NCBI RefSeq assembly: GCF_000024945.1
Contig: NC_013520.1
Span: forward strand, 892,501 to 956,500
Reading direction: 5' to 3'
DNA from: Veillonella parvula DSM 2008
GTDB lineage: Bacteria; Bacillota; Negativicutes; Veillonellales; Veillonellaceae
Length of the DNA stretch: 64,000 nucleotides
Shown here: piece by piece, positions 38,439 to 48,327 of the stretch
Layout of the letters: each line of letters begins with the position of its first letter
Numbering within the stretch: the first letter of the stretch is position 1
Made by a program: the position numbers and the translations under genes
Notes under the pieces: model-generated
What the model saw: only the letters and a program-made list of their open reading frames with translations
The model's database searches: none
Told to the model about the DNA's origin: nothing

Positions 38439-39371
38439 ATGAAGCAAATACATTCGTTTGATGAACTACGTCAAATCAAAGATACAAAAGTATATGCCCT
38501 TGGTACCTTTGATGGCATTCATCGAGGTCATCAACGAGTTATACGTAAGGCTGTTGAAGAGGCTACATCAATCAATGGCGTAAGTATTATCATTACCTTT
38601 GAACATCATCCGTTGACTATATTACATCCAGAACGAGTACCTAAACGGGTGATTCAAGAAGAGATTATGGATACTGTGCTAGAAGAGCTCAAAGTTGACT
38701 ATATTTTACGATTACCTATGACTGAAGCATTATTAAAAATGACTGCAGATGAATTCTTACATGATCTCTGCAATGATATGAATGTGGAAGCTATTGTAAT
38801 TGGTGAAAACTTTACATTTGGTGCAAAGGGGCTTGGCAATCCAGAATATATGAAAAAAGTGGTAGCGGATAAGAATATACGAGTTCTTGTACAGCCTTTA
38901 CTGCCATGTGATGGTCGTAGTACACCTATTTCTAGTACAGAAATTAGAAAGGCTATTCATGAAGGACGTTTGGAGGATGCAAATCATTGGCTAGGTAGGC
39001 CATTCCAGTTTAAAGGAACTGTGATTAAAGGTGATCAACGGGGACGCACATTAGGATTTCCAACATTAAATCTATTACTTCCTAATGAAATGGCTACACC
39101 TCCAGATGGAGTCTATGCTAATCGTGTATGTATTGGTGGTATTTGGTATGATGGGGTAGGCAATATTGGAGATAATCCAACCTTTAGAAATCAGTACCAT
39201 AGATGTGAAGTACACGTTTTTAACTTTGACCAGGATATATATGGAAAAGAAGTGATTGTACAGTTCATTTCTTATATTAGAGGAGAAGTTAAATTTAATA
39301 ACTTACAAGACCTTATCGATCAAATGAAGGTAGATGAAGAACAGGCTCTAGCTATTTTAGCTAATGCATAA
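38439..39371 (+). CDS. ribF: Bifunctional riboflavin kinase / FAD synthetase RibF
   Basis: Converts riboflavin to FMN and then FAD. The N-terminal adenylyltransferase has ALGTFDGIHRGHQ near residue 20 (HxGH) and ISSTEIRKAIHEGRL near 167. The C-terminal flavokinase has GTVIKGDQRGRTLGFPTLNL near 193 (partly quoted) with the GFPT motif and DGVYANRV near 225. Length 310 aa. It starts two bases after the truB stop, its usual neighbour. Confidence 0.95.
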   Translation: MKQIHSFDELRQIKDTKVYALGTFDGIHRGHQRVIRKAVEEATSINGVSIIITFEHHPLTILHPERVPKRVIQEEIMDTVLEELKVDYILRLPMTEALLKMTADEFLHDLCNDMNVEAIVIGENFTFGAKGLGNPEYMKKVVADKNIRVLVQPLLPCDGRSTPISSTEIRKAIHEGRLEDANHWLGRPFQFKGTVIKGDQRGRTLGFPTLNLLLPNEMATPPDGVYANRVCIGGIWYDGVGNIGDNPTFRNQYHRCEVHVFNFDQDIYGKEVIVQFISYIRGEVKFNNLQDLIDQMKVDEEQALAILANA

Positions 39372-39384
39372 AAAGGGGGTTCTC

Positions 39385-40149
39385 ATGGATATTAAAGAAG
39401 CTCGAAAACAGATAGATAGTATTGATTCTGTATTAGTTACGGAGTTTGAAAAGCGACTCACATTGATTAAAGAAATTGGTAAATATAAGGATGAACATCA
39501 TTTACCACTTATTGATGAAGAACGGGACGAAAGTATCATTGCTTTACATACTCAAAATTGTAAAGATAAAGTTTTAGCACCTTATGTTGAAAATTATATA
39601 AAAACCGTCGTTTCTATGAGTAATGAGTTCTTAAAAGAACACATGCATAAGCATATTTTTCTCATTGGTATGCCTGGCGCAGGTAAGACTACTGTTGGTA
39701 AGGTTCTAGCTAAAGAGTTGGGGCGAGATTTTTTTGACTTAGACCAAACGATTCAAGACAAAGTGGGTAAATCTGTTCAAAATATCTATATTTACGATGG
39801 TAAAGATGCTTTCAGTGAATATGAATATGCTACAATTAAAGAATTAATTCATAATAAACCATCTGTCATTGCTACAGGTGGCGGTACGGTTACCTATAAC
39901 AAAACTGTTAAATTGATGCGCAATAATGGTCTTGTTGTATTTGTTAACCGCGATGTAAATCATATTTTAGATGATTTGGATCTAGAGATTCGTCCGCTTG
40001 TAAAAGAAAGTATCGAATATATTTTTAATGTATATGAAGAACGATATCCTTTATATGAAAAAGTAGCACATATTAAAATTGGTAACGAAGGCAGTATTAC
40101 CGATGCAGTGCAAGAAATTATTGAAGCCTTGCCGAATACGGAGAAATAA
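39385..40149 (+). CDS. Chorismate mutase-shikimate kinase fusion
   Basis: Two aromatic-pathway domains in one 254-residue chain. Residues 1-88 are an AroQ-type chorismate mutase helical domain (IDSIDSVLVTEFEKRLTLIK; IGKYK; LIDEERDES). Residues 89-250 are a shikimate kinase with P-loop GMPGAGKT (95-102), FFDLDQTIQ (116-124), GGG (165-167) and RPLVKE. The kinase is atypical: the usual GE..FR..E shikimate-binding signature reads GKDAFSEYE, with serine (144) replacing the arginine that holds the substrate carboxylate. The ATG at 39385 follows AAAAAGGGGG; an in-frame ATG at 39364 would overlap ribF. It ends on the first base of recD2. Confidence 0.82.
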   Translation: MDIKEARKQIDSIDSVLVTEFEKRLTLIKEIGKYKDEHHLPLIDEERDESIIALHTQNCKDKVLAPYVENYIKTVVSMSNEFLKEHMHKHIFLIGMPGAGKTTVGKVLAKELGRDFFDLDQTIQDKVGKSVQNIYIYDGKDAFSEYEYATIKELIHNKPSVIATGGGTVTYNKTVKLMRNNGLVVFVNRDVNHILDDLDLEIRPLVKESIEYIFNVYEERYPLYEKVAHIKIGNEGSITDAVQEIIEALPNTEK

Positions 40150-42302
40150 TGGACGCCATACGAGGATTTGTATACCGAACTATATATGAGAATACACAAC
40201 GTACATATTGCGTGTTTATCCTAAAAGATTATAATGAGGAATACATTACTTGTACTGGCAAATTTGAGTCTCCTAAAGAAGGGGAAGACATCGAAGTACG
40301 GGGCCGCTATGTAGAACATGAAAAGTACGGCCGCCAATTTGATGCGAGCAGTGTTGAAAAGTTAAAACCTGATAATATGGGTGCTGCCAAGACTTATTTG
40401 TTGAATCTAGGAATAAAAGGTTTTGGTGAAAAATCCGTAGAGAAGGTACTAGAGTATTTCGGTATTCGTATTTTAGAAATTTTACGGGAAGAACGTCCAG
40501 AAGAGATTAAGGATGTTCCAGGTCTCCGAAAGAGTGTTAAGGATGAATTATTTAATACCTTACTTGGTGAAGGTATTTTATCCGATTTAAATCATTTTTT
40601 TGAAAGTCATCACATTTCATCGAAATGGAGTCGCATTGTATATACCTATTATGGTGTGCAGTCAGTTGCAGTTATAGAGGATAATCCTTATACATTATTA
40701 CGTGTAGCACCGGATATGCTCTTTGGTACGGCCGATACACTAGCAGAGCATCTTGGTATTAATGGTAGTGATACACGCCGTTTAGAGGCTGGTTTAGAAT
40801 GGATTCTACGTAGTTTAGATAATCAAGGTCATACATGTTTACCAGTAGACCAACTTATCGGTCGACTTGACGATTTATTACAAACTGATGTAGATGATAT
40901 TGCGAACTTTATTGAAAGTTTGCTGGAACAAGGTGCACTGTATAGTACGTATTATGAAGACATCTTATATATCTATCCGCCAGAGATGTATGTTTCTGAA
41001 GTGGAAGGGGTCCACTATACTCGTGAGTTTCTATTACAAGCTGATCCAATAGCATTAGATATTTCTAGTTTTATTGAAAAGTTTGAACGAGACAACTACA
41101 TTACTTTTGGTGATGCTCAAAAAGAAGCTATACAGCTCTCATTTTTTGAAAAGTTTTCTCTTATAACTGGTGGTCCTGGTACAGGTAAAACAACTATCAT
41201 CAAGGCGCTAGTAAAAGGTTTCCAACTCGGTGGATTGGGGCGCATTATACTTTGTGCTCCTACGGGACGTGCTGCAAAGCGTCTGACCGAGGCCACTGAG
41301 TTTGAAGCTACTACAATTCATCGTCTATTGGTACCTGTTCAAGGTAGTGACTCCTATGACTTTACAAAGAATGAAGATGATCCTCTAGATATAGATGTCA
41401 TTATCATCGATGAAGCATCTATGCTTAATGTGCGTTTATTCTATTCTTTGATGGCTGCTATTCCAAAGGAAGCCCATGTCATTATTGTGGGTGACGTAGA
41501 TCAATTACCACCTATAGGTGCTGGGTTCGTATTAAAAGATTTATTAGATAGTGATTGTGTGCCCTATACACGACTTAATCAGATTTATCGTCAAAGCTCT
41601 GGTAATACTATCGTTGAAAGTGCTTACGCAATTAACCGTGGTGAAATGCCTAACCTGGAAGGTGTGAGCGAAGAGTTTTCTTTTATTCCTGTTAAATCTT
41701 ATGATATGATGATGAAAGCCATCATTGATGTATATAAACGTGAACAAGAGACGATAGAGGATGAATTAGATATTCAAATTATTTCTCCTATGCGCCGTGG
41801 TGAAGCAGGTAGTACATTGATATCACAATATGTACAACAAGCCGTAAACCCTCCAGACAGCTATAAGGGAGAAGTTCGTGTCAATGGCATTACGTATCGC
41901 GTTGGGGATAAGGTTATTCAAATTCTCAATGATTATGAGTTAGAAGTGTTTAATGGCGAAATTGGCGTTATCTATGCTATTACGCGGACCGATATTTGTA
42001 TTCGATTTATCCATAAAGAGGTTCGTCTACCTATCGATGAAGCACATATGATTATGCCTGCTTATGCTATTACAGTTCATAAGAGTCAAGGTAGTGAGTA
42101 TGGTGTAGTTATTATTCCATTTGTTCCACGTTATGGTGGCATGTTACAACGTAATTTGTTGTATACTGCTGTTACACGGGCAAAGCGTAAAGTAATCATC
42201 GTTGGTACTACGAGCGCAGTTGAACGTGCTGTGCGTACTGTTAATGCCGATGAACGTTACACATTGTTTAAAGAACGACTACAAGGGAGATGTGATTCGT
42301 AA
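40149..42302 (+). CDS. recD2: RecD2 (RecD/TraA-type) ATP-dependent DNA helicase
   Basis: 5'-3' superfamily 1B helicase that works without RecBC, linked to repair and replication-fork stability. The N-terminal OB-like and helix-hairpin-helix part (residues 1-200) includes LGIKGFGEKSVEKVLEYFG. The helicase has Walker A TGGPGTGKTT near 338, VIIIDEASMLN near 415 (motif II), VGDVDQLPPIGAG near 440 and TVHKSQGSEYGVVIIP near 640 (motif V). Length 717 aa. It starts one base inside the preceding stop (TAATGG) and hands over to comFC in the same way. Confidence 0.93.
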   Translation: MDAIRGFVYRTIYENTQRTYCVFILKDYNEEYITCTGKFESPKEGEDIEVRGRYVEHEKYGRQFDASSVEKLKPDNMGAAKTYLLNLGIKGFGEKSVEKVLEYFGIRILEILREERPEEIKDVPGLRKSVKDELFNTLLGEGILSDLNHFFESHHISSKWSRIVYTYYGVQSVAVIEDNPYTLLRVAPDMLFGTADTLAEHLGINGSDTRRLEAGLEWILRSLDNQGHTCLPVDQLIGRLDDLLQTDVDDIANFIESLLEQGALYSTYYEDILYIYPPEMYVSEVEGVHYTREFLLQADPIALDISSFIEKFERDNYITFGDAQKEAIQLSFFEKFSLITGGPGTGKTTIIKALVKGFQLGGLGRIILCAPTGRAAKRLTEATEFEATTIHRLLVPVQGSDSYDFTKNEDDPLDIDVIIIDEASMLNVRLFYSLMAAIPKEAHVIIVGDVDQLPPIGAGFVLKDLLDSDCVPYTRLNQIYRQSSGNTIVESAYAINRGEMPNLEGVSEEFSFIPVKSYDMMMKAIIDVYKREQETIEDELDIQIISPMRRGEAGSTLISQYVQQAVNPPDSYKGEVRVNGITYRVGDKVIQILNDYELEVFNGEIGVIYAITRTDICIRFIHKEVRLPIDEAHMIMPAYAITVHKSQGSEYGVVIIPFVPRYGGMLQRNLLYTAVTRAKRKVIIVGTTSAVERAVRTVNADERYTLFKERLQGRCDS

Positions 42303-42997
42303 TGAGTCTTTGGGATTTCCTATTTCCACCTGTATGCCCTCACTGTGGTGCACCTGTGGCAACACAAGGGGATTGGTGTAAAGCTTGTTTTACAGATTTA
42401 TTACATATTCGTCATATACCACATAAATTTTTACACTATGTAGATGATGTATGTGTGTTGGCCGAATATCGTGGTGGTCTAAAGTCTATGATTTACGATG
42501 TAAAATTTAATGAAAAAAAGGAGCAGTCCAAAGGGGCCGCTCCTTTTTTAGTATCGTACAACTTTTACATGAAATATAATGAGTCTAACATTGTGAACAG
42601 TAATTGTAAAATTATGTATGATTATATTGTTCCCGTACCATCTAGCGAAAAGAAAAAAGCTAAGAGAGGATATAATCAAGTAGATTTATTCTTTCTTGAA
42701 TGGGCTCATTCTTTATGGGAGATAGATAGAAAAAACTTTAAATGGTTAGATTGTATATACAAGTTTGATACTTCTCGAGATATGTGGGGATTAACAAATA
42801 AAGAAAGACATCAAAATATTGATGATGCTTTTGTTATACGCGCCGATTACAAGGATATTGATTTGACAAATAAGAATATTTTAATCGTAGATGATATATA
42901 TACTACAGGTGCTACAATTGAAGCCGTAGCAAAAGTCTTGCAAAAACATAACGCTTTACGCGTTGATGCCCTTACGCTAGCTAGTGGTAGTTTCTAA
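42302..42997 (+). CDS. comFC: ComFC-like phosphoribosyltransferase-fold competence protein
   Basis: Family needed for DNA uptake in transformable bacteria. An N-terminal zinc-finger-like pair is present (CPHCGAP near residue 13; WCKACF near 27), followed by the PRTase-type domain with YNQVDLFF near 121 and the phosphoribosyl-binding motif ILIVDDIYTTGAT near 195. Length 231 aa. It is coupled to recD2 by a one-base overlap. A perfect hairpin with a T-tract lies inside the reading frame (42514-42549, listed separately). The region around it (NEKKEQSKGAAPF) aligns poorly with what I expect of ComFC. Confidence 0.87.
   Translation: MSLWDFLFPPVCPHCGAPVATQGDWCKACFTDLLHIRHIPHKFLHYVDDVCVLAEYRGGLKSMIYDVKFNEKKEQSKGAAPFLVSYNFYMKYNESNIVNSNCKIMYDYIVPVPSSEKKKAKRGYNQVDLFFLEWAHSLWEIDRKNFKWLDCIYKFDTSRDMWGLTNKERHQNIDDAFVIRADYKDIDLTNKNILIVDDIYTTGATIEAVAKVLQKHNALRVDALTLASGSF
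42514..42549 (+). terminator. Terminator-like hairpin inside comFC
   Basis: AAAAAAGGAGC (42514-42524) and GCTCCTTTTTT (42539-42549) make a perfect 11-bp stem with a 14-nt loop, within the coding sequence at codons 71-83. It has the shape of an intrinsic terminator on both strands. Whether it is used when translation fails is unknown. Confidence 0.55.
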
Positions 42998-43111
42998 TCT
43001 TTACTATTAAATGTAGGAATATAATATTTGATTTTATAGTAGCATTATAAAATGTATTCATATCAAATTATGGCGATAATGTTTCTAAAAGAAATAGTTA
43101 ACTTAGTATAT

Positions 43112-43141
43112 AAAAAAGCGTTCACCTGAAGGTGAACGCTT
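43112..43141 (-). terminator. Terminator of the HD-GYP gene
   Basis: AAGCGTTCACC and GGTGAACGCTT (43116-43126 and 43131-43141) form an 11-bp stem with a TGAA loop. The A-run at 43112-43117 gives a U-tract on the minus strand, so it serves the minus-strand gene. It may also block readthrough from comFC. Confidence 0.85.
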
Positions 43142-43151
43142 AATTAACATA

Positions 43152-43754
43152 TTAGCCAAGTACATCAATAAATGCTTTAACAACATCTGGATCAAAGAGA
43201 GAACCGGACGCACTAAAAAGTTCTTCTTTTGCTTTAGCTTTTGTTTTAGCCCAAAATTCAGTAGAAGGATTAACTGTTGTATCATAGTAATCTGCTACAG
43301 CAATAATTCGAGCTCCTAACGGAATATTGGCACCACGTAAATGTTTGGGATAACCAGAACCATCCCATTTTTCATGATGATAACGAATATAAGGTAAAAT
43401 TTGTTGGCAGCAAGGATAGTTTTCAATCATATTGGCACCACTTGCAGCATGTTGTTTATACTTAGACATTTCTTGCTTATTAAGATATGGAGATTTTTGG
43501 ATTAATGCATTAGGAACCATTAATAGACCCACGTCATGAAGTAAAGCTGCGTGACGAATCTGTTCAATTTCATTTAATGGTAAACCCATTTTAGCTGCGA
43601 TGCTAACAGCATAGTTTGAAACCTGAATAGAATGTGTATAGAGATGATAGCTTTTCATTTGTATCATCTGTAAAAGTTGTGCGCTTATGGCTTCTAAACT
43701 GTCTTTCTCCAGTTCATACAAACCTGATGGTTGCATCAATGATAACATAAACAT
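43152..43754 (-). CDS. HD-GYP domain protein, probable cyclic-di-GMP phosphodiesterase
   Basis: A stand-alone HD-GYP domain of 200 aa with no sensor domain. Catalytic motifs appear intact: LLHDVG with H73/D74, a histidine at 102 (QHAASG), HHEKWDGSGYP at 126-136 (the full GYP signature) and ARIIAVADYYDTTVNP near 148. Known family members hydrolyse cyclic di-GMP or related dinucleotides; the specific substrate is inferred. There is no signal peptide, so it is cytoplasmic. AGAGGGG precedes the ATG. It runs against its neighbours and separates comFC from the structured RNA gene. Confidence 0.82.
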   Translation of the reverse strand: MFMLSLMQPSGLYELEKDSLEAISAQLLQMIQMKSYHLYTHSIQVSNYAVSIAAKMGLPLNEIEQIRHAALLHDVGLLMVPNALIQKSPYLNKQEMSKYKQHAASGANMIENYPCCQQILPYIRYHHEKWDGSGYPKHLRGANIPLGARIIAVADYYDTTVNPSTEFWAKTKAKAKEELFSASGSLFDPDVVKAFIDVLG

Positions 43755-43778
43755 AATAAACCCCTCTAACTAACAAAC

Positions 43779-43813
43779 TGAACATATGGTACAACCCCTC
43801 GTACTTATGTTCA
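43779..43813 (-). promoter_or_regulatory. 5'-UTR hairpin of the HD-GYP gene
   Basis: TGAACATA and TATGTTCA (43779-43786, 43806-43813) with inner GTAC/GTAC pairing form an imperfect stem around an 8-nt loop that reads GAGGGGTT on the minus strand. It lies in the predicted leader, about 25 nt from the start. It does not match a cyclic-di-GMP riboswitch core. It could be an operator dyad. Confidence 0.35.
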
Positions 43814-43854
43814 TATCGTACAACTTTAGGCCGTTCTAATTTAACAGTATACAA

Positions 43855-43883
43855 ATTATACACCATAAATAATTTTTTGTGTA
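43855..43883 (-). promoter_or_regulatory. Promoter of the HD-GYP gene
   Basis: On the minus strand TACACA (43883-43878) and TATAAT (43860-43855) with 17-nt spacing, about 100 nt before the start codon. Confidence 0.55.
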
Positions 43884-44170
43884 TGATACGTATGTTCTTA
43901 CAAATATGTTGTATTCATATTTGGCATACAAAAACTAATTGACAATTTAAGAATCCACTAGATATGGTACTTAAAAAATGTGATTTTAGAAATATTAAAA
44001 TATTATGAAGAATATTTTAGGTTTTCTATTCCAATTTTCTATACATCAACAAATAGGGGTTGCAAAATTTATTCTCATTGTTCTAAGAATTATGCGATAG
44101 TATGTTTGGTAAAAAAATATGTTTGGCTACTTAACTATATAATCAAAATTTTTTAAAATAATAGTAAAAC
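43884..44170. other. AT-rich intergenic stretch without a recognised gene
   Basis: Nothing here looks coding. It contains a TTGACA at about 43941 with only a poor -10 (TATGGT) behind it, and a direct repeat of TATGTTTGG near 44101 and 44119. It separates the HD-GYP promoter (minus) from the structured RNA promoter (plus). Confidence 0.5.
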
Positions 44171-44199
44171 TAGACATGAATACTGTTATTCTTTATAAT
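44171..44199 (+). promoter_or_regulatory. Promoter of the structured RNA gene
   Basis: TAGACA (44171-44176) and TATAAT (44194-44199) with exactly 17-nt spacing. Predicted initiation at about 44205 coincides with the first base of the RNA's closing stem. Confidence 0.8.
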
Positions 44200-44203
44200 A
44201 CGT

Positions 44204-44438
44204 CTATACGGGTCTGTGGTTGAAAGTCGAGGCTAGTCGCAGGCAAAACGATCCACATAAGCAGCCCAAAGGGTTGTGAGCATGGTGCGGCTTAGGTGTA
44301 AGTCCTGCCGATAAAATCGAGAGAGGTAGTAGTGGGGAGTCTTGGACTTATGAGCGAACCTTCCAGCAGGCGAGTGTGGGGGCAAAGACCAGGTCAGCCG
44401 TATAGGGGCACATGAGGCTTTTCTCATGTGCTTTTTTT
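44204..44438 (+). ncRNA. Stand-alone structured RNA, about 230 nt, candidate raiA-motif RNA
   Basis: A GC-richer island in an AT-rich gap with all signs of an RNA gene. The closing stem pairs CTATACGG (44204-44211) with CCGTATAG (44398-44405) perfectly. Inside are CAGCCC-AAA-GGGTTG (44262-44276), CGAT-AAA-ATCG (44309-44319), a long-range 7-bp match TAAGTCC/GGACTTA (44299-44305 and 44344-44350) and CCACAT/GTGTGG (44252-44257 and 44374-44379). It starts at a good promoter and ends in a terminator. No ORF in it looks real. It is not RNase P RNA, tmRNA or tRNA by their core sequences. The position between comFC and hpf (raiA) suggests the raiA-motif RNA class, but I cannot confirm this by consensus. 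Confidence 0.82.
44408..44438 (+). terminator. Terminator of the structured RNA
   Basis: GCACATGAG (44408-44416) and CTCATGTGC (44423-44431) with a 6-nt loop, followed by seven Ts. It directly abuts the closing stem of the RNA. Confidence 0.93.
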
Positions 44439-44586
44439 ATACAGTTGTATATTATAAAATCTATAGAAAACCACTAACTATGGGAAAGTTTTTATACATA
44501 GCCGTAATATTTATACAAATAATGCATAAACTTAAAATATAAATATAGTGATTTTGCGATTATATCTAAAATTATATACAAAATTA

Positions 44587-44615
44587 TTGACATAATTATA
44601 CTTAATCTATATACT
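44587..44615 (+). promoter_or_regulatory. Promoter of the polar amino-acid ABC operon
   Basis: TTGACA (44587-44592) and TATACT (44610-44615) with 17-nt spacing, about 40 nt before the binding-protein gene. One of the best promoter matches in the window. Confidence 0.85.
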
Positions 44616-44656
44616 ATTATAAAGTAGTAGTAAGTTAAAATAATGAGGTTGATAAT

Positions 44657-45463
44657 ATGTTAAATAGCAAAGTAAAAAAAATAATTCTTGGCGGTTGTAT
44701 GTTAGTGATGGCTGCTTCTTTAGTTGGTGGATGTGGTTCCTCTAATCAACCTACATCTAATAAACTTATCGTTGGCACTAATGCTACATTTGTTCCATTT
44801 GAGTTTAAAGATGAAAAAACTCAAGATTATACAGGTTTTGATATTGAATTGATTCGTGCGATCGGTAAACGTATTAATAAAGATGTAGAGCTAAAAAATG
44901 TAGCTTTTGATGCTTTGATTCCAGCTTTGAACACACATGATATTGATGTTGCTGCATCTGGTATGACTATTACAAAAGCGAGAAGTGAAAAAGTATTATT
45001 TTCTTCTCCTTATTATGAAAATGCCTTAGCAGTAGTATATAAAGATGGAACGGCTGTGAATTCTCTTGATGACTTAAAGGGTAAAAAAATTGCAGCCCAA
45101 TTAGGTACTACTGGTGCAGATTTAGCTCATAAAATTGAAGGTACTACTGTAAAAGAATTTGACCATAGTAATGAAGCTTTGTTAGAATTACAAAATGGTG
45201 GAGTAGATGCAACTGTAATCGATTTACCTGTAGCTCAATATTACAGTACTAAGCATCCTGACCAACATATTAAATTTATGGCATATCCAAATACTAAAGA
45301 ATACTTGGGCTTAGCAATTAATAAGGATAACAAAGCATTGCAAGAAGAAATCAATAAAGCAATTGCTGATATGAAGGCTGATGGTGAATTTAATACATTA
45401 TATAAAAAATGGTTTAATGTAGATGCACCTGCTGATATGCCAGTAGTTTTAGAATTTAAATAA
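44657..45463 (+). CDS. Polar amino-acid ABC transporter substrate-binding lipoprotein
   Basis: Family 3 (GlnH/HisJ-like) extracytoplasmic binding protein, 268 aa. The lipoprotein signal ends in LVGGC with C26. Mature features are LIVGTNATFVPFEFKD near 37, YTGFDIELIRAIGKRI near 60, DALIPALNTHDIDVAASGMTIT near 85 (partly quoted) and AQLGTTGADLA near 145. ATG follows AATGAGG. It is the first gene of a classical binding protein-permease-ATPase operon. Glutamine or another polar amino acid is likely, but the ligand is not determined. Confidence 0.9.
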   Translation: MLNSKVKKIILGGCMLVMAASLVGGCGSSNQPTSNKLIVGTNATFVPFEFKDEKTQDYTGFDIELIRAIGKRINKDVELKNVAFDALIPALNTHDIDVAASGMTITKARSEKVLFSSPYYENALAVVYKDGTAVNSLDDLKGKKIAAQLGTTGADLAHKIEGTTVKEFDHSNEALLELQNGGVDATVIDLPVAQYYSTKHPDQHIKFMAYPNTKEYLGLAINKDNKALQEEINKAIADMKADGEFNTLYKKWFNVDAPADMPVVLEFK

Positions 45464-45474
45464 TAGGAGAGATT

Positions 45475-46131
45475 ATGAGTTTTAATTGGGGGTTAATTGC
45501 GGATAATTTACCGCTCTTGCTACAAGGTGCTCTAGTGACTGTAGAAATTACAGCCATGTCTGTAGGTTGTGGCTTTTTTATCGGTCTTTTAGTATCTTTA
45601 GCAAATTTATCTAAATTTAAATTAGTTAGATTGCTTGCAAAATGTTATGTAGATATCATTCGTGGTACACCATTACTGGTGCAAATTTTCCTAATTTATT
45701 TTGCCTTGCCTATGATTACAGGTCAACGGATTGATCCATATATTGCGGCTGTTACCGCATGTAGTATTAACTCTGGTGCTTATGTATCTGAAATTTTCCG
45801 TGCTGGTATTCAATCTATTGATAAAGGTCAAATGGAGGCCGGTCGTTCTCTTGGTTTAACTTGGGGACAAACCATGCGTTACATCATTATGCCTCAAGCT
45901 TTTAAAGCAATTATTCCTCCGTTAGGGAACGAATTTATTGCCATGTTGAAAGATTCCTCTTTAGTTTCTGTTATCGGTTTCGAGGAGTTGACACGTCGTG
46001 GTCAATTAATCATTGCTAAAACCTATGCATCCTTTGAAATCTGGGGTACGGTTGCTGTGATTTACCTTATTATGACAGTGACTATCTCACAATTAGTTGG
46101 ATATCTTGAAAGGAAATATAGCATTAAATGA
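45475..46131 (+). CDS. Polar amino-acid ABC transporter permease
   Basis: HisM/GlnP-type permease of 218 aa with about five membrane segments. [18 protein letters not shown] near residue 13 is the conserved start, [19 protein letters not shown] near 57 is the family signature, and [22 protein letters not shown] near 121 (partly quoted) is the EAA loop that contacts the ATPase. It starts 11 bp after the binding protein (AGGAGAG) and overlaps the ATPase start by four bases. Confidence 0.93.
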
Positions 46132-46853
46132 TTAAATTAGAAAATGTACATAAATCTTTTGGTAAAAATGAAGTACTAAAAGGTATTAATTTACATATTG
46201 AACAAGGTCAAGTTGTTGTAATCATCGGTCCTTCTGGTTCTGGTAAAAGTACGGTACTGCGCACTATGAACTACTTGGAGGAACCTACATCTGGTAAGGT
46301 TATCGTAGATGGCATGGATCTTTCTGATAAGAAAAAGTTAAATGACGTTCGTGCTGAAGTAGGAATGGTTTTCCAAAACTTTAATTTGTTCCCACATATG
46401 ACGGTTATGGAAAACCTTACCTTAGCACAAACTAAGGTTCGTAAAACATCTATGGAAGAGGCTAAGAAGATAGGTCAAGCTTTACTTGATCGAGTAGGTT
46501 TGGCGGATAAAGCCAACGCATACCCTGATTCTTTGTCAGGCGGTCAAAAGCAGCGTGTTGCTATTGCTCGCGCTTTAGCTATGAAACCAAAAGTAATGCT
46601 TTTTGATGAACCTACTTCAGCTCTTGATCCTGAAATGGTTAGTGAAGTGCTAGATGTTATGAAGTCTTTAGCTGAGGAAGGTATGACGATGGTCATCGTT
46701 ACTCATGAAATGGGCTTTGCGAAAAAGGTAGCGGATAGAGTGTTATTTGTTGATGGTGGCTTGATTTTAGAAGATAATACACCTGAACGCGTATTTGATG
46801 CACCTACGAATGAAAGAACAAAATCATTCTTAGATAAAATTTTGTTAGATTAA
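46128..46853 (+). CDS. Polar amino-acid ABC transporter ATP-binding protein
   Basis: GlnQ/HisP-type ATPase, 241 aa. Walker [10 protein letters not shown] is near residue 35, [18 protein letters not shown] near 81 covers the Q-loop in a form typical of amino-acid importers, the signature LSGGQKQR is near 137, Walker [16 protein letters not shown] near 156, and the H-loop THEMGFA near 193. It starts inside the permease stop (ATGA) with no separate ribosome site, so translation is coupled. A terminator follows. Confidence 0.95.
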
Positions 46854-47799: not shown

Positions 47800-48327
47800 A
47801 TGAAAGTAGCAATTAGAGGAAAAAACATTGAAGTGACAGATGCCTTAAGAGCATATATCGAAAAAAGATTGAGTAAATTGACTCGTTACTTCGATGATGA
47901 GTTAGATGCACAAGCGGTTTTATCCGTTGTAAAAGATAAATCTACAATTGAACTTACATGTTTTGTTGATAAAATCGTTCTTCGTGGTGTGGAAACTAAC
48001 GATGATATGTACGCAGCTATTGATTTAGTAGTAGATAAAATTGTTCGTCAAATCCATAAATATAAAACTCGTTTAGCTAAACGTTTCAAAAAACAAGAAG
48101 CTTTCCATCCTGAAGCTTTGGCAGCTCCTGTGGAAGAAGAAACTATTGAAGTTGTAAAACGCAAACACTTTGTTGTGCGCCCTATGGATGTTGAGGAAGC
48201 GATTTTACAAATGAATCTTATTGGTCACGATTTCTTTATGTTCTTTAATGCTGAAACTGAAGCGATGAACGTTGTTTATCGTAGACATGATGGTTTCTAT
48301 GGTTTGATCGAGCCAGAACTTCAATAA
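47800..48327 (+). CDS. hpf: Long-form ribosome hibernation promoting factor (HPF/RaiA)
   Basis: Binds the decoding region of idle ribosomes and, in the long form, joins them into 100S dimers. The N-terminal domain (residues 1-100) has IRGKNIEVTDALRAYIEKRLSKL. After a linker, the C-terminal dimerisation domain (about 118-172) has VVRPMDVEEAILQMNLIGHDFFMF (partly quoted) and VVYRRHDGFYGLIEP. Length 175 aa. AGAAAGGGTG precedes the ATG. In B. subtilis too hpf is followed by secA and prfB, as here. Confidence 0.95.
   Translation: MKVAIRGKNIEVTDALRAYIEKRLSKLTRYFDDELDAQAVLSVVKDKSTIELTCFVDKIVLRGVETNDDMYAAIDLVVDKIVRQIHKYKTRLAKRFKKQEAFHPEALAAPVEEETIEVVKRKHFVVRPMDVEEAILQMNLIGHDFFMFFNAETEAMNVVYRRHDGFYGLIEPELQ

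Follow-up and report, generated by a model that had tools for sequence, protein, structure and literature searches.

A single-copy raiA-motif (ModT) RNA gene in Veillonella parvula, a genome in which neither Spo0A nor GGDEF proteins are detected

Introduction

What is encoded by the GC-rich tract that lies between the competence gene comFC and hpf in Veillonella parvula DSM 2008, and what could it do in this host? The initial annotation of the window (the whole 64,000-nucleotide stretch of contig NC_013520.1 that was analysed) proposed a structured RNA of the raiA-motif class, with a new RNA as the alternative. Found in more than 2,500 species, the raiA RNA, or ModT, ranks with the most conserved of the bacterial RNAs that still have no assigned molecular function (PMC11706538). 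In Clostridioides difficile, loss of ModT affects sporulation via c-di-GMP (PMC11706538).

Results

The element is a full-length raiA-motif RNA

A covariance model search of Rfam, a check that the initial annotation had suggested, matched RF03072 on the forward strand over the entire model (positions 1-209 of 209), with a score of 198.2 bits (E = 6.8e-51) against a curated gathering threshold of 101.3 bits. The proposed class thus holds, and this full-length score led us to reject a different Rfam class or a new RNA. The 2.13-Mb genome contains one copy of RF03072. As had been noted from the sequence, the RNA is GC-richer than its surroundings (53-54% versus ~19-25% in the flanks). Together with the covariation described below, these results identify the element, with next to no doubt, as the single-copy raiA-motif (ModT) RNA gene of Veillonella – a member of a widespread RNA class that is already known. 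Coordinates of the gene, its parts and its neighbours are given in Table 1.

Table 1. Features of the raiA RNA locus (positions in the window)
Feature	Position	Strand	Basis or remark
raiA-motif (ModT) RNA, full length	44203-44406	+	Rfam RF03072
Sigma-70 type promoter	44171-44199	+	-35 TAGACA 44171-44176, 17-nt spacer, -10 TATAAT 44194-44199
P1 (a-c), 5' strand	44203-44221	+	pairs with 44387-44406; Rfam structure mapped
P3 stem	44227-44251	+	44227-44229/44249-44251 and 44233-44234/44242-44243
P3 loop, 5' half of pk-1	44235-44241	+	pairs with 44286-44292
P5, variable hairpin GCAGCCC-AAA-GGGTTGT	44260-44277	+	predicted, single-sequence folding
pk-loop, 3' half of pk-1	44286-44292	+	mapped structure, covariation
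P6 44304-44308/44366-44370; P7 44309-44311/44317-44319	within 44304-44370	+	
P8 44323-44326/44360-44363 and inner pairs	within 44304-44370	+	
P1 (a-c), 3' strand	44387-44406	+	Rfam structure mapped, covariation
Intrinsic terminator GCACATGAG-GCTTTT-CTCATGTGC-TTTTTTT	44408-44438	+	hairpin, T7 tract
comFC	42302-42997	+	TIGR00201 85 bits, below curated cut-off; Pfam Pribosyltran and DZR_2 above cut-off
Lone HD-GYP domain protein, 200 aa	43152-43754	-	PF13487 126.5 bits; divergent from RNA
Polar amino-acid ABC transporter (substrate-binding protein, permease, ATPase)	44657-46853	+	NCBIfam; downstream of RNA terminator
Long-form hpf (raiA gene family)	47800-48327	+	TIGR00741, PF02482, PF16321

A further suggested check was an alignment for covariation. 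We scored the Rfam structure plus P3 on an alignment of 38 homologues, drawn from Negativicutes, Clostridia and Actinomycetota and 68-92% identical to the Veillonella RNA. Standard pairs occupied 86.6% of cells, versus 78.0 +/- 0.4 in shuffles and at most 45.6% when the structure was slid along the alignment. Pairs changed on both sides numbered 34, versus 22.0 +/- 1.6 in shuffles, and none of 500 shuffles reached as high a number.

The signal extends across the conserved parts of the fold, including the pseudoknot. The perfect 8-bp closing stem described in the initial annotation reappears in the mapped Rfam structure, where 44204-44211 (CTATACGG) pairs with 44398-44405 (CCGTATAG), flanked by a wobble pair between 44203 and 44406. 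P1 as a whole comprises 17 pairs, with both-sided changes in 11 of its 12 outer pairs. P3 is paired in 100% of cells with compensatory changes in 2 pairs, and P6, P7 and the base of P8 are paired in 97-100% of cells, also with compensatory changes. All 7 pairs of pk-1 can form here; across the homologues 98.5% of their cells are paired and 3 pairs show both-sided changes. Conserved, covarying helices P1, P3 and P6-P8 thus mark this RNA as a member of RF03072. P5 differs in sequence and length among homologues, and its columns mapped out of register (47% paired), so it is excluded from our claims. The folding energy of the single sequence is better than expected by chance, though only modestly so (z = -2.58); the decisive evidence for the RNA is the Rfam score and the covariation rather than this energy.

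An Rfam scan of 42950-44700 by E-value returned, besides raiA, only one sub-threshold match, to the L20 leader (43104-43234, reverse strand, 36.2 versus a threshold of 58.7 bits); it overlaps the HD-GYP gene at its 3' end and is probably due to chance. Elsewhere in the window, 39364-40149 (forward strand) encodes a 261-aa protein that appears to be a fusion of chorismate mutase and shikimate kinase domains, with all NCBIfam scores below curated cut-offs.

A dedicated promoter and terminator are conserved in the genus

All 14 Veillonella genomes contain exactly one copy of the RNA (186.8-198.4 bits), and in each of them TAGACA-17/18-TATAAT occurs at the same place, ending 3-4 bases 5' of the model start. 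The promoter here, which had been recognized in the initial annotation, matches the consensus at 11 of 12 positions, and the end of its -10 box at 44199 places the predicted transcription start at ~44204-44207, a few bases from the first base of the stem. A literature search for published Veillonella transcript-start data found none.

A strong terminator had likewise been noted directly after the stem. Region 44405-44440 has a folding energy of -16.4 kcal/mol, and a direct hairpin search found a terminator hairpin 3' of P1 in 14/14 genomes; an automated terminator scan, which listed none here, missed this real terminator, and absence from that scan carries no weight. At the sequence level, the sigma-A-type promoter and intrinsic termination characteristic of ModT-type genes are therefore present throughout the genus. 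The raiA gene would form a transcription unit of its own, read from a housekeeping-type promoter as far as the strong intrinsic terminator; the predicted RNA is ~234 nt long, or ~202 nt once the terminator hairpin is trimmed.

The comFC–hpf address reflects a flagellar gene segment

Published members of the class have comFC nearby in 74% and raiA in 66% of cases (PMC11706538). In Veillonella the gene order is comFC (+), HD-GYP (-), RNA (+), amino-acid ABC transporter (+), cold-shock (+), hpf (+) and secA (+). The location between comFC and hpf given in the initial annotation is therefore correct in that both genes flank the RNA at a distance, but neither is an immediate neighbour, with the HD-GYP gene intervening on one side and the transporter and cold-shock genes on the other.

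Flagellated relatives (L202, L203 and L205) have the order recD2, comFC, HD-GYP (-), flgM, flgN, flgK, fliW and flagellin, and in L202 flagellin is followed by fliD, the raiA RNA and the transporter. Judged from this gene order, the 'comFC...hpf' address represents the two ends of a conserved comF-flagellar-hpf-secA segment. A search of the Veillonella genome for a flagellin gene found none; the flagellar block is gone, with the comF and hpf-secA ends closed up on the RNA.

Neighbours vary further afield. L009, a member of the genus, has the RNA but lacks comFC and the adjoining HD-GYP gene, and at five loci from two other families (L059, L066, L067, L075 and L078) a search within 6 kb of the RNA matched none of ComFC, HPF and the transporter. 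A set of 120 matches from elsewhere, most of them in Clostridia and Actinomycetota, had ComFC detected close to the RNA in 40 cases and HPF in 45, even with short flanks and distant queries. The raiA unit, with its promoter and terminator, persists when its neighbours change.

Many hosts retain the RNA without Spo0A or GGDEF proteins

Within a sample of 300 genomes drawn from the host's class, 181 contain the raiA RNA. Nearly all of the 119 RNA-negative genomes (109) belong to a single family (f14), and laxer filters applied to 22 RNA-negative genomes, 16 of them from f14, yielded no raiA match above threshold. The best HD-GYP matches in f14 are distant (E ~1e-12 to 1e-32), and the comFC-linked orthologue appears to be absent there too. 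On the upstream side of secA, ~13 kb in three f14 genomes gave no ComFC or HPF match.

Spo0A is present in 56 and GGDEF in 216 of the 300 genomes. Among the 181 RNA-positive genomes, 51 have Spo0A and 130 do not, while 103 have GGDEF and 78 do not; those 78 also lack Spo0A. Fisher values for these overlaps take no account of phylogeny and are set aside; the counts speak to the existence of such hosts. Many complete genomes thus retain the raiA RNA without detectable Spo0A or diguanylate cyclase. Veillonella is among them: searches with PF08769 (Spo0A) and PF00990 (GGDEF) detected neither in its genome, nor was either detected in any of the 14 genus genomes. The pairing of Spo0A and a diguanylate cyclase that would go with a ModT-type regulator of sporulation and c-di-GMP is accordingly undetected in this host.

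Taken with the C. difficile phenotype, the 78 genomes in which both are undetected imply that sporulation and c-di-GMP outputs cannot be a shared ancestral function in these hosts, and cannot be the conserved raiA function wherever Spo0A and GGDEF are missing. The core job of the RNA in Veillonella is probably something else, and the clostridial sporulation and c-di-GMP effects would be lineage-specific outputs.

Discussion

A trans-acting RNA is the favoured reading

We consider a single-copy, trans-acting raiA (ModT) RNA with its own promoter and terminator to be the best overall explanation of the locus, and hold it with good confidence; that the RNA is free-standing and acts in trans is, taken alone, very probable. 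It would fold into a compact pseudoknotted structure and work in trans, not as the leader of either hpf or the transporter downstream. Consistent with this, ModT complements knockouts in trans in both C. difficile and Clostridium acetobutylicum (PMC11706538), and the raiA RNA is a monomer with a compact fold (PMC11751092, PMC12286853).

How it might act is a more tentative matter. ModT is transcribed in C. difficile from a SigA promoter to an abundance near that of stable RNAs, and its Grad-seq sedimentation suggests a protein complex (PMC11706538). In the most likely mode, the Veillonella RNA would be an abundant, stable structured RNA that binds a protein or ribosome-linked partner, and this binding might adjust the shift out of growth into stationary phase. 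We give such an RNA–protein mode, as the core mechanism, slightly less than an even chance. The functional data covered come from Clostridia, the Veillonella copy may have drifted in function, and the literature covered yielded no molecular partner of any raiA RNA.

Two other trans-acting modes are unlikely, in our judgement to the same degree. A ribozyme or RNA-processing factor, acting for example on tRNA or rRNA precursors, would fit the very high conservation of unpaired columns in the raiA alignment, the compact rigid fold, and the raised tRNA and 5S in the C. difficile knockout (PMC11706538, PMC11751092). However, no cleavage or catalysis is reported in the literature covered, and nothing in the sequence indicates an active site. 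The RNA might instead be a former riboswitch that now senses a nucleotide second messenger or metabolite in trans, as shifts in DMS reactivity between growth phases in C. difficile could suggest (PMC11706538), but raiA RNA has no known ligand, and because GGDEF is undetected in 78 of the 181 RNA-positive genomes, c-di-GMP cannot be its general ligand.

The adjacent HD-GYP protein raises the possibility of a functional partnership between the RNA and a phosphodiesterase. HD-GYP enzymes degrade cyclic dinucleotides, and the nearest solved relatives of this protein are cyclic-dinucleotide phosphodiesterases. It retains the HD pair and HHExxDGxGYP, though its HDVGL lacks the lysine of the usual HDIGK, and it is the sole match in a genome without a GGDEF domain. 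It is also nearly invariant in the genus – comparisons with four congeners gave 0 nonsynonymous and 54-67 synonymous codon changes – while the adjoining ComFC drops to 39-76% identity in many congeners. ModT loss in C. difficile changes c-di-GMP (PMC11706538). Where both RNA and HD-GYP could be placed (120 genomes, positions among the matches listed), they lie less than 2 kb apart in 63 and 10-55 kb apart in 32; another 4 have them on one contig but more than 100 kb apart, and the other 21 have them on separate contigs.

The 63 cases made partnership look strong at first, but the ancestral order weakens it. In flagellated relatives HD-GYP sits next to comFC, and flagellar genes separate it from the RNA by 10-55 kb; the adjacency thus arose by deletion, through loss of the flagellar genes, and by itself is no evidence of partnership. 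Moreover, three RNA-positive genomes (G190, G199 and G217) have no match to the protein, two (G030 and G088) have weak paralogue-level matches only, and other classes do not have the protein beside the RNA in this arrangement. We therefore regard the partnership as very improbable, and equally so its specific form, in which a raiA core function independent of sporulation and c-di-GMP may pair in Veillonella with the lone HD-GYP protein on another cyclic nucleotide or an RNA-linked substrate. Separately, an HD-GYP-like protein (33-40% identity) is encoded on the RNA's strand ~2-7 kb downstream, beyond hpf, in L082, L110, L125, L127 and L200 (Slackia, Coriobacteriia and other records).

Slightly less credible still, and very unlikely, is cis control of the ABC transporter by conditional termination, with the RNA as a leader or riboswitch. 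Rfam types RF03072 as 'Cis-reg; riboswitch', a terminator directly follows P1, and many families of the host's class have a transporter operon 3' of the RNA. The transporter, however, has its own promoter-like site (TTGACA-17-TATACT, 44587-44615); the five loci from two other families have no such gene near the RNA; and the genes flanking the RNA in Clostridia and Actinomycetota are instead ComFC and HPF. The downstream gene varies across families and phyla, in place of the constant linkage expected of a cis-riboswitch. We reject cis control on this synteny and because both C. difficile and C. acetobutylicum knockouts are rescued in trans (PMC11706538), a result with which the Rfam label conflicts.

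The weakest alternative, a chance GC-rich island or coding region with no RNA gene, could appeal to an overlapping 64-aa antisense ORF (44233-44427, the longest), but this ORF has no match in a family search and shrinks to 26-27 aa in 5/14 congeners, which bears out the initial view that no convincing ORF is present, and the Rfam match, covariation and conservation in 14/14 genus genomes leave it a negligible chance.

Comparison with known raiA systems

Having favoured a trans-acting raiA RNA, we note what Veillonella adds to a known class: a host missing its two best-studied outputs, and an account of how the comFC-hpf synteny came about. The RNA is kept with its promoter and terminator although Spo0A, GGDEF and flagellin are undetected in the genome. 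Veillonella thus offers a stripped-down host, in which the basic raiA function could be examined free of the phenotypes in sporulation and c-di-GMP by which clostridial work is complicated.

Relative to the RF03072 raiA motif, the Veillonella RNA has no structural difference: the match is full-length, includes all paired regions and pk-1, and is single-copy. As in that class, comFC lies some way upstream and hpf some way downstream, though the immediate neighbours differ (HD-GYP on the reverse strand and the amino-acid ABC transporter). Like ModT of C. difficile, it has a housekeeping-type promoter directly upstream, an intrinsic terminator immediately 3' of the conserved domain, and a GC-rich sequence within an AT-rich genome (PMC11706538); unlike the ModT host, Veillonella has no detectable Spo0A or GGDEF machinery for sporulation and c-di-GMP outputs. 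The C. acetobutylicum raiA RNA differs in that no terminator hairpin is predicted there (PMC11706538), whereas in Veillonella one follows at once. By alignment, the two RNAs share P1, P3, P6-P8 and pk-1 (cryo-EM structures 9CXF and 9ELY; PMC11751092, PMC12286853), the last of which was seen by cryo-EM in the C. acetobutylicum RNA (PMC11751092).
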